Shown: positions 18,949 through 21,273 of the stretch, piece by piece
How the letters are laid out: each line of letters begins with the position of its first letter
How positions within the stretch are numbered: the stretch's first letter is position 1
Source of the DNA: Ferrimonas balearica DSM 9799
GTDB taxonomy: Bacteria; Pseudomonadota; Gammaproteobacteria; Enterobacterales; Shewanellaceae
NCBI RefSeq assembly: GCF_000148645.1
Contig: NC_014541.1
Coordinates: forward strand, 744,001 to 808,000
Direction of reading: 5' to 3'
DNA length: 64,000 bases
Notes under the pieces: generated by a model
Told to the model about the DNA's origin: nothing
Databases searched by the model: none
What the model saw: only the letters and a program-made list of their open reading frames with translations
Position numbers and translations under genes: made by a program

Positions 18949-19506
18949 TTACACGCTGAACAGGGTCACCAGACCAAAGGCCGCGAACAGTGCGGCACTG
19001 CCGCGATGGATCCAGGCCATCGGCAGCTTGTCTGCGGACAGCTTACCCGCCAGTACCACCGGCACATTGGCCAGCAGCATGCCGATGGTGGTACCGGTGA
19101 TCACCATCCACATGGCATCGTACTTGGCGGCCAGCAAGACCGTGGCGATCTGGGTTTTGTCGCCGATCTCGGCCAGGAAGAACAGGATGAAGGTGGCTAC
19201 AAAGGGGCCAAAGCGGTAGAGCGGACTCTCCTCGGCTTCCACTTTATCGGGGATCAGCATCCAGGCGGCCATGGCCAGGAACGAACCGGCCAGCAGGTAA
19301 CGGCCGAGATCGCCATTAAGCCACTCGCCCAGCCAGGCGCCAAAGTAGGCCGCGGCGGCGTGATTCAGCAGGGTGGCGGCAAGAATGCCCAGGCAGATCA
19401 CCAGCGGTTTATGGAACCGGGTGGCCAGGATAAAGGCCAGCAGCTGGGTTTTGTCGCCAATTTCGGCGATCGCCACCGCCAGGGTGGAGGAGAACAGAGC
19501 TTCCAT
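18949..19506 (-). CDS. mneA: Manganese exporter, TMEM165/GDT1 family
   Basis: 185-residue inner-membrane protein with the two inverted EIGDKTQ motifs of the UPF0016/GDT1 family (IAEIGDKTQLLAF near residue 14 and LAEIGDKTQIATV near 113) and six predicted membrane segments. Bacterial members such as Vibrio MneA expel Mn2+. The yybP-ykoY riboswitch upstream supports manganese as substrate. The ATG at 19506 lacks a strong SD, which fits translation being set by the leader RNA structure. Confidence 0.93.
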   Translation of the reverse strand: MEALFSSTLAVAIAEIGDKTQLLAFILATRFHKPLVICLGILAATLLNHAAAAYFGAWLGEWLNGDLGRYLLAGSFLAMAAWMLIPDKVEAEESPLYRFGPFVATFILFFLAEIGDKTQIATVLLAAKYDAMWMVITGTTIGMLLANVPVVLAGKLSADKLPMAWIHRGSAALFAAFGLVTLFSV

Positions 19507-19595: not shown

Positions 19596-19725
19596 CGAGT
19601 CTTGCCAAGTCCGGAGGCGGGCAGGGGAGAACCCTGGGCCGGGACCGCGACCACCATGCTCTGCGGAGCAATTATGTTGATGGCCGCCAACGTGAAAGGA
19701 GAGGCTACTCCCCCGAGGCGGCGCC
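19585..19725 (-). ncRNA. yybP-ykoY manganese riboswitch
   Basis: On the minus strand the leader contains the conserved GGGGGAGTAGCC entry, a CATCAACATA stretch, GCATGGTGGTC and the closing CTTGGCAAGACTCGCGG, the ordered landmarks of the yybP-ykoY (Mn2+) aptamer (E. coli mntP and alx). It lies ~80 nt upstream of a manganese-exporter start, the expected gene partner. In this class Mn2+ binding turns expression on. Boundaries are approximate. Confidence 0.85.
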
Positions 19726-19860
19726 ATTATAGACAGGCTGGTGTTGGCGGAGCAACCGTTTCAGAAATTGTGAAGTGGGATGAAAAAGTGTGAGCGAAAG
19801 CACTTGCGGCGGGGAGGCACCTTGGCATAGCCTGAGTGGGCATTTTACGAGAGATGATTC

Positions 19861-19905
19861 ATGCACCACCAAGCGTATTATTACGCTCGATTTTGCCAGC
19901 CCTGA
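19861..19905 (+). CDS. Tyrosine-rich leader peptide upstream of tyrP
   Basis: A 14-codon ORF reading MHHQAYYYARFCQP, with three consecutive Tyr codons (TAT TAT TAC, 19876-19884) and a Phe. It is preceded by a GAGAG stretch nine bases before the ATG. Its stop codon lies inside the 5' arm of a long hairpin. Clustered codons for the amino acid transported by the downstream product are the hallmark of attenuator leader peptides; no such Tyr leader is known to me for tyrP, whose E. coli copy is TyrR-controlled. Confidence 0.5.
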   Translation: MHHQAYYYARFCQP

Positions 19906-19988
19906 TGGCATCGTCGAGTGTGAGTTAACCCCCACAGCCACGACGCCATTAGGGCTAATTGAAACCGACCGACGGTCGGGGATCAATT
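19898..19988 (+). promoter_or_regulatory. tyrP: Two tandem hairpins in the tyrP leader
   Basis: Hairpin 1 pairs AGCCCTGATGGC (19898-19909) with GCCATTAGGGCT (19945-19956; one G-U pair) and continues inward (GTCG/CGAC, TGTG/CACA). Hairpin 2 pairs AATTGA...CCGACC with GGTCGG...TCAATT (19957-19988). Neither has a U tract, so intrinsic termination is not evident; control could be translational or Rho-linked. Confidence 0.5.
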
Positions 19989-20088
19989 GGCAAGACGGTG
20001 TGGTGGCGGACGCGCAACCTTCTCTCCCCTTCTCCCCAATATTCCCTGCCCTGACGTCAGACGTTTACCCATAACGAACGACGACAAT

Positions 20089-21273
20089 ATGACACGCAGT
20101 AAATTGATTGGTGCCACCCTCATTGTGGCGGGAACTTCTATTGGGGCAGGCATGCTGGCCCTGCCCATCTCCACCGCCGCCATTGGCTTCTGGCCCGCAC
20201 TGGCCCTGATGACCGCCGTTTGGGCGCTGTCCGGCTACTGCGCCCTGCTGGTGATGGAAGTGAATCTGAAAGTGGGTTCGGACGTGAACCTGCACGGCAT
20301 GACCGGCCAGGTGCTGGGGCCAATGGCCCAGGGCATCGGTGCCTTTGCCATGCTGGCCCTGTTGTACGCCCTGACGGCGGCCTACCTGACCGGTGGCGCT
20401 TCGCTCCTCAGCCTGAAACTGGCTCCCTGGCTCACTCTGCCTCCGGCGGTGGCCACCGCCATCTTTACCGTGCTGGTGGGGGGCGTAGTGCTGTTGGGCA
20501 TGGCGTCAGTAGACCGGCTGGTGCGGGTGCTGTTCGGCCTGAAAATGGTCGCGCTGGTGGCCGTACTGCTGACCCTGCTGCCCCAGGCCGAGGGCGCCAA
20601 CCTGATGGTGAACCTGGCCAAAGCCGCTCAGGATGGCGGTGTTTGGGTGGCAGCGCTTCCGGTGATGATCACCTCGTTCGGTTTCCACGTCTGCATCCCG
20701 CCGCTGGTGCGCTACCTCGATGGCGACGTGAAAACCCTGCGCACCGCGCTGCTGGTGGGGTCCGCCCTGCCGCTGGCCTGCTACAGCCTGTGGCTGCTGG
20801 CCGCTTTGGGCCCGCTGAGCCCCTCCGAGCAAAGTGCGCTGGGTCAGGGCGATGCGCTGGCTGGCCTGGTTAAGGCGCTAAGCCCGGAGTCCGGCTGGCT
20901 GGGCCAGGTGCTGACCGCCTTTGCTGACCTCGCTCTGCTGACCTCCTTCCTCGGCGTCACCCTGAGCCTGTTCGACTACCTGGCGGAGCTGTGCCGTCGC
21001 GACCGCACCGTATCCGGCCGCGGCCAGACCTGGCTGCTGACCTTCCTGCCACCGCTGGCTCTGGCCATCTACCTGCCGGAGGGGTTTGTCGCGGTGTTGG
21101 GGTTTGCTGCACTGCCGCTGGTGGTGCTGATGGTGCTGCTGCCGGTGGCCATGGCCCATCGTCTGCGCGGCCAGAGTGAGGGGTACCAGGTGGCCGGTGG
21201 TCGTCCGGCGCTGGCGTTGGCGCTGGTGGGTGGACTGACCGTTATGGGCGCCCAGCTGGCCACAGCAATGTAA
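20089..21273 (+). CDS. tyrP: Aromatic amino acid permease, TyrP/Mtr-like (HAAAP family)
   Basis: 394-residue inner-membrane proton symporter of the HAAAP family. The N-terminal GATLIVAGTSIGAGMLALP, the central ITSFGFHVCIPPLVRYLDGD and the end FADLALLTSFLGVTLSLFDYLAEL match TyrP closely, so tyrosine uptake is the best guess; tryptophan or phenylalanine is possible. The ATG at 20089 starts the family N-terminus, but no clear SD precedes it and the frame is open ~34 codons upstream without similarity. The 230-bp region before it contains the Tyr-rich leader peptide and two hairpins. Confidence 0.9.
   Translation: MTRSKLIGATLIVAGTSIGAGMLALPISTAAIGFWPALALMTAVWALSGYCALLVMEVNLKVGSDVNLHGMTGQVLGPMAQGIGAFAMLALLYALTAAYLTGGASLLSLKLAPWLTLPPAVATAIFTVLVGGVVLLGMASVDRLVRVLFGLKMVALVAVLLTLLPQAEGANLMVNLAKAAQDGGVWVAALPVMITSFGFHVCIPPLVRYLDGDVKTLRTALLVGSALPLACYSLWLLAALGPLSPSEQSALGQGDALAGLVKALSPESGWLGQVLTAFADLALLTSFLGVTLSLFDYLAELCRRDRTVSGRGQTWLLTFLPPLALAIYLPEGFVAVLGFAALPLVVLMVLLPVAMAHRLRGQSEGYQVAGGRPALALALVGGLTVMGAQLATAM

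Follow-up and report, generated by a model that had tools for sequence, protein, structure and literature searches.

A conserved and apparently undescribed translated leader before TyrP-like permease genes in Ferrimonas and a sister genus, possibly read by the ribosome at codons 10–11

Upstream of a gene for an aromatic amino acid permease in Ferrimonas balearica lies a very short reading frame containing consecutive Tyr codons, followed by tandem hairpins, an arrangement that raises the question whether a ribosome translating this frame controls the permease gene and, if so, at which codons it is read. The first-pass annotation of this DNA had proposed an amino-acid-sensing leader. The locus was analyzed within a window of 64,000 nucleotides (the whole stretch of DNA under study, to which all positions refer) that belongs to a genome of one contig (4,279,159 bases); its features are collected in Table 1. 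The elements described in the annotation are all present: the 14-codon frame with three consecutive Tyr codons, a stop codon that falls within the 5′ arm of a strong hairpin (P2), a second hairpin (P3) that directly adjoins the first, and a permease gene downstream. The top NCBIfam match of the permease is TyrP at 329 bits, below the equivalog cut-off of 482 bits, and "TyrP-like" is therefore the correct label. Between the hairpins and the permease start is a gap of ~100 nt with a C-rich tract, and, in agreement with the annotation, which had seen no U-tract terminator, no intrinsic terminator is predicted on the plus strand of positions 19700–20200.

A TGTGA...TCACT match, corresponding to the CRP-like site of Table 1, is also found upstream in several Ferrimonas homologues. 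The neighboring TTGCGG/CATAGCCT pair is presumably the promoter; a consensus scan of the leader region for sigma-70 promoters gave no match at its threshold. Farther upstream, on the minus strand, a manganese (yybP-ykoY) riboswitch is found at 19607–19718 (46.4 bits, gathering score 45), upstream of a divergent GDT1-family cation antiporter gene (18949–19506, minus strand).

Table 1. Positions of the leader, its RNA segments and neighboring signals in the window.
Feature	Position	Strand	Basis or remark
CRP-like site TGTGA-N6-CACTT	19789–19805	+	sequence
Promoter-like pair TTGCGG and CATAGCCT, beside the CRP-like site	19804–19809 and 19826–19833	+	sequence
Shine-Dalgarno-like GAGAG of the leader ORF	19849–19853	+	GAGAG or similar purine-rich stretch 5′ of the start in most homologues
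Leader ORF MHHQAYYYARFCQP, 14 codons	19861–19905	+	ATG at 19861, TGA at 19903–19905
Three Tyr codons TAT TAT TAC, residues 6–8	19876–19884	+	sequence
Segment A TTACGCTCGA, pairs with A′	19881–19890	+	cognate versus swapped duplex energies
Codon pair CGA-TTT (Arg10-Phe11), proposed ribosome pause site	19888–19893	+	invariance among leaders
P1 5′ arm TTTTGCC	19891–19897	+	3/7 pairs changed on both sides
P2 5′ arm AGCCCTGATGGC, holds the stop codon	19898–19909	+	98.9% of cells paired; 3/11 pairs changed on both sides
Segment A′ TCGAGTGTGA, between the P2 arms	19914–19923	+	cognate versus swapped energies; paired changes in tyrP2
P2 3′ arm GCCATTAGGGCT	19945–19956	+	pairs with 19898–19909
P3 hairpin AATTGA..CCGACC..GGTCGG..TCAATT	19957–19988	+	changes on both sides in 3/6 lower and 4/5 upper pairs
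P1 3′ arm GGCAAGA	19989–19995	+	GGC can lengthen P3 instead when P1/P2 are open
C-rich, G-poor tract, candidate rut site for Rho	20010–20070	+	C minus G in the top 0.05% of 50-nt windows of the 64 kb
TyrP-like aromatic amino acid permease gene	20089–21273	+	Pfam Trp_Tyr_perm, E 7.8e-97

Comparison of genomes indicates that the leader before tyrP is a real and conserved element. DNA similarity places it ahead of tyrP in 13 of the 14 Ferrimonas genomes, the fourteenth (G007) having only a distant permease homologue; one of the 13, F. senticii, has a tandem pair of tyrP genes, both preceded by a leader and structure of their own. A covariance model built from the Ferrimonas homologues (R1) matches before a tyrP homologue in a second genus of the same family, and a broader model (R2) finds 34 of the 69 genomes of the sister genus, which we take to be Shewanella, at E < 1e-4, with the matches at that level lying upstream of tyrP genes. 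Covariance-model scans of the order (296 genomes) and of the class (369 genomes) gave nothing convincing outside the family, the weak matches having E 0.02–0.5. The matches beyond Ferrimonas that were inspected in a pattern scan of named genomes look like chance, several of them apparently lying within coding sequence, as also appears to be the case for L205, a weak match elsewhere in G065. At one locus of the sister genus (L207, in G088) the leader is cleanly missing while the promoter and the permease start are kept, which is consistent with a removable regulatory module. The homologues are not independent counts. Two observations stand apart from this distribution: at L137 (G169, a single genome of another family) tyrP is preceded by a short ORF resembling the leader, MSQKRYCQPWWLG*, which contains CGA-TAT, and by a hairpin that matches, an arrangement absent from the four relatives inspected and of uncertain homology; and L180, from a record titled Marinobacter nauticus DP3N21-5, has a leader of Ferrimonas type and is probably mislabelled.

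The leader family appears to be undescribed. Rfam 15 gives no match at gathering for positions 19855–20000 (the best permissive match has E 0.69 and is below its gathering score), and no description was found in the literature searched, which did not cover the aromatic-regulon comparison of Panina et al. (2001), where an earlier prediction is possible. Excerpts of TyrR regulon studies (PMC5343134, PMC3223726) mention no tyrP leader, and none is described in the main text, supplementary tables aside, of a survey of Shewanella cis-RNAs (PMC2659441). The remark in the first-pass annotation that tyrP of E. coli is known only for control by TyrR is not quite accurate, as GcvB modestly reduces a tyrP translational fusion (PMC11878033).

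The RNA of positions 19855–20000 is predicted to fold with z = −6.4, and none of 200 shuffles is as stable. Beyond the two hairpins noted in the annotation, a further helix, P1 (19891–19897/19989–19995), encloses P2 and P3 to form a three-way junction. In 32 sequences from both genera 95.9% of cells are paired in P1, P2 and P3, both partners have changed in 13 of the 29 pairs, and the covariation score of 0.235 exceeds those of all 500 shuffles and all slid controls, in an alignment that was fitted to the structure model and thus leans towards it. For A:A′, cognate duplexes average −10.0 kcal/mol and swapped duplexes −7.0 kcal/mol (Wilcoxon p 1.4e-7) among 37 collapsed leaders, which are not phylogenetically independent; in the group of leaders before the paralogous permease gene tyrP2, A:A′ pairing is kept through two-sided changes (CCTATCT/AGATAGG, TTATCT/AGATAA, TATCCC/GGGATA). 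Base pairing in P1–P3 and in A:A′ is well supported by this comparison. Ferrimonas and the tyrP2 group have a strong A:A′, long-leader Shewanella a moderate one, and the RFS* subgroup a weak one or none; because A:A′ and P2 interleave, they would form either a pseudoknot or alternative helices. Positions 19872–19887 in Ferrimonas can also form a small hairpin from the Tyr codons (GCGTA-TTAT-TACGC type), the 5′ arm of which is shifted in some relatives, and which may compete with A:A′.

Translation of the leader is likewise well supported by comparison, in which the spacing from start to codon pair and the identity of the codons are both conserved. The Arg codon is CGA in 49 of 49 tyrP1 leaders, compared with ~8% of the Arg codons of the 64-kb window and of the tyrP genes, and the Phe codon is TTT in 48 of the 49 (TAT in one). 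Several synonyms are used at the Pro and Ile codons that flank CGA-TTT, indicating that the region is not merely unchanged through recent descent. In 52 of 58 leaders a start codon lies exactly nine codons 5′ of the CGA (tyrP1) or of the corresponding TAT (tyrP2), the next commonest offset occurring in 12 leaders; ATG, GTG and TTG interchange at this same position, and the spacing is fixed despite unrelated N-termini. The start codon is thus kept among relatives, and with the start nine codons upstream the pair constitutes residues 10–11, which are Arg-Phe in tyrP1 and usually Tyr-Leu in tyrP2. An aromatic residue stands three positions before the Arg in 39 of 48 leaders. The stop codon is found 3, 5 or 9–12 codons past the Arg codon (leader lengths across relatives are ~11–21 codons), a variability that suggests an event before the stop is reached. 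That the nascent length is fixed, that a rare codon is invariant and that the stop is free to move together argue for codons 10–11 as the place where the ribosome is read. In the sister genus, the related leaders of the tyrP2 paralogue (L102–L110) have Tyr runs (MHCYLPYYYYLLPQWHR and MRITTAYYPYL, for example at L109 and L110) and carry Tyr10-Leu11 where tyrP1 has Arg10-Phe11.

Selection on the peptide at codons 10–11 cannot be fully separated from constraint on the RNA: CGA-TTT is situated at the edge of A and P1, and part of its invariance could stem from RNA pairing. That CGA-TTT is kept solely for pairing with the P3 5′ arm (AATTG) was rejected by inspection of L073, L098 and L060, which lose the complement and keep CGA-TTT.

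The main rival to a ribosome read at codons 10–11 is classical attenuation by tRNA charging, in which a shortage of Tyr-tRNA would stall the ribosome on the Tyr codons and alter the hairpins so that tyrP is expressed. It draws on the fact that the TAY-TAY-TAY run of the leader is the only one in the 64 kb, in all frames and on both strands. Close relatives within Ferrimonas and the leaders of the paralogous tyrP2 (YYPYL*, YYYYLLPQWHR*) have, moreover, retained Tyr runs, by virtue of which the leader may still have some link to Tyr, and one Ferrimonas clade can form a hairpin over the Tyr codons. In tyrP1, however, the run is not kept: 19 of 49 leaders have no Tyr codon at all (for example, LKLMSLFCKRFS and MSLTITFIARFCQPQWHGER), yet Arg-Phe and the structure remain. 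The effect of a ribosome on folding was computed by masking a footprint of 15 nt on each side of the P-site codon start, with footprint size and fold energies as assumptions of the model. With the ribosome masked on the Tyr codons, P2 and P3 are predicted to be nearly intact (−49.3 kcal/mol); P1 is predicted to open together with most or all of P2, and P3 to gain three pairs, when the P site is at Phe11, Cys12 or the last codon. Charging attenuation needs neither an invariant CGA codon nor a fixed spacing, and no U-tract terminator is found; we therefore regard it as unlikely. Of the earlier proposal of an amino-acid-sensing leader, what is supported is that a regulatory leader lies upstream of tyrP, is translated and is coupled to RNA structure; Tyr codons as the sensing element, in the form proposed, are not supported.

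It is quite improbable that control is instead exerted at the level of initiation, such that ribosome load on the leader would determine translation or mRNA stability of tyrP, and the spacing would be set by the footprint of an initiating ribosome beside A:A′ and not by the nascent chain. The start codon does lie ~20 nt 5′ of segment A, a distance at which an initiating ribosome would just abut A:A′, but the spacing holds to the exact codon in 52 of 58 leaders, in the RFS* subgroup with its little A:A′ too, and the predicted fold shows no pairing between the leader and the start region of tyrP. Sequestration of the tyrP Shine-Dalgarno sequence was also considered and is without support in that fold. 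Least probable of all is a riboswitch in which the pseudoknotted junction is a small-molecule aptamer and the ORF is secondary, since, for all its compact junction lacking unpaired bases at the branch, its pseudoknot-like A:A′ and its strong covariation, outside the ORF few of the unpaired nucleotides are invariant, the sequences of loops and internal loops vary, A:A′ is missing in the RFS* subgroup, and the invariance of the codons and of the spacing from start to codon 10 requires translation as its explanation.

As for the output, the C>G bias of the tract before the permease gene is kept in all Ferrimonas homologues, is modest in the sister genus, and is missing in much of the RFS* subgroup. 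A C-rich, G-poor tract combined with the lack of a predicted intrinsic terminator makes Rho-dependent termination the most likely output, and the mention in the first-pass annotation of Rho or stalling as means of control is plausible in light of a translated leader and structure with no intrinsic terminator.

The explanation we prefer, to which we give a probability of roughly 0.5, is that pausing or arrest of the leader ribosome at codons 10–11 switches the helices and so governs early, probably Rho-dependent, termination before tyrP. A ribosome would start at 19861 and, under some condition that is probably the level of an aromatic amino acid, would pause or arrest when Arg10(CGA)-Phe11(TTT) occupies the decoding and peptidyl-transfer centre and the nascent chain has reached 10–12 residues. 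Its footprint would break A:A′, P1 and P2, and P3 would lengthen. In the absence of a pause the ribosome would run to the stop codon, the place of which is immaterial, and leave, upon which P1-P2-P3 would re-form with or without the A:A′ pseudoknot. Which of the two folds is present would decide whether the C-rich tract ahead of tyrP serves for early termination, probably by Rho. In this mechanism the effect of the footprint on folding is a computed one; ribosome arrest, the signal sensed and the part played by Rho are inferred, and the response may be either induction or repression. Against it stand the position of the candidate rut site, which lies beyond the structure and not at the stop codon as in tnaC and complicates the coupling of pause to Rho, the weak or absent A:A′ of the RFS* subgroup, and a C-rich bias that is modest in the sister genus and missing in much of the RFS* subgroup.

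A more far-reaching version, which is tentative and has the odds against it, is that the leaders represent a new family of very short arrest peptides (a chain of ~10–12 residues with an aromatic usually at position 7 and Arg10-Phe11 or Tyr10-Leu11) that senses a free aromatic amino acid in the ribosome, tyrP1 and tyrP2 being the RF and YL specificities of one sensor that is coupled to a pseudoknotted three-way junction and not to a terminator. If reading at codons 10–11 is correct, the element would be a leader responsive to an amino acid, with the ribosome being read within a very short peptide, and it would exist naturally in an Arg-Phe and a Tyr-Leu form, one for each of two paralogous permeases. 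The RF/YL pair would then make ligand selection by a nascent peptide directly testable in cultivable Shewanella and Ferrimonas, and aromatic amino acid uptake would have an extra layer of control beyond TyrR.

Among known systems, TnaC of the E. coli tnaCAB operon combines arrest induced by free Trp with Rho-dependent attenuation. The tyrP leader resembles it in encoding a short peptide ahead of the gene for an aromatic amino acid permease, in lacking an intrinsic terminator, in having Pro as its last codon in the F. balearica version, and in its C-rich tract as a candidate Rho site. However, in TnaC the ribosome arrests at the stop codon while Pro24 occupies the P site (PMC8429421), whereas among tyrP leaders the stop shifts by up to 9 codons and the invariant residues are Arg10-Phe11; the tyrP leader also has a large conserved RNA structure and lacks a TnaC-like Trp/Asp pattern. 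TnaC-style arrest at Pro-stop was accordingly rejected as a common feature, the stop being 3, 5 or 9–12 codons after the Arg. With trpL, pheL, hisL and the leu leader it shares an ORF with clustered relevant codons, and its helices may likewise be alternatives, P1/P2 against a lengthened P3 under the computed footprint. Unlike attenuators of the trpL type, it has no U-tract terminator, its Tyr codons are not conserved, the gene controlled is a permease, and A:A′ is interleaved with P2 instead of following a 1:2, 2:3, 3:4 order; conserved codons and an intrinsic terminator, two defining features of a tRNA-charging attenuator, are thus both lacking. In the copper system of Bordetella, arrest on the upstream ORF CruR is linked to termination by Rho ahead of a transporter gene (PMC9426467). 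The likeness here is one of general principle, an arrest ORF and Rho control before a transporter, both of which are inferred for the tyrP leader; CruR belongs to the DUF2946 proteins and carries a CXXC sensor and an RAPP arrest motif, whereas the tyrP leader, at ~11–21 codons, has neither motif. Short leaders of the Erm type, which sense antibiotics and control resistance genes, undergo drug-induced arrest at a fixed short nascent length of ~8–10 residues, and it is this fixed short nascent length that the arrest proposed for the tyrP leader would have in common with them.
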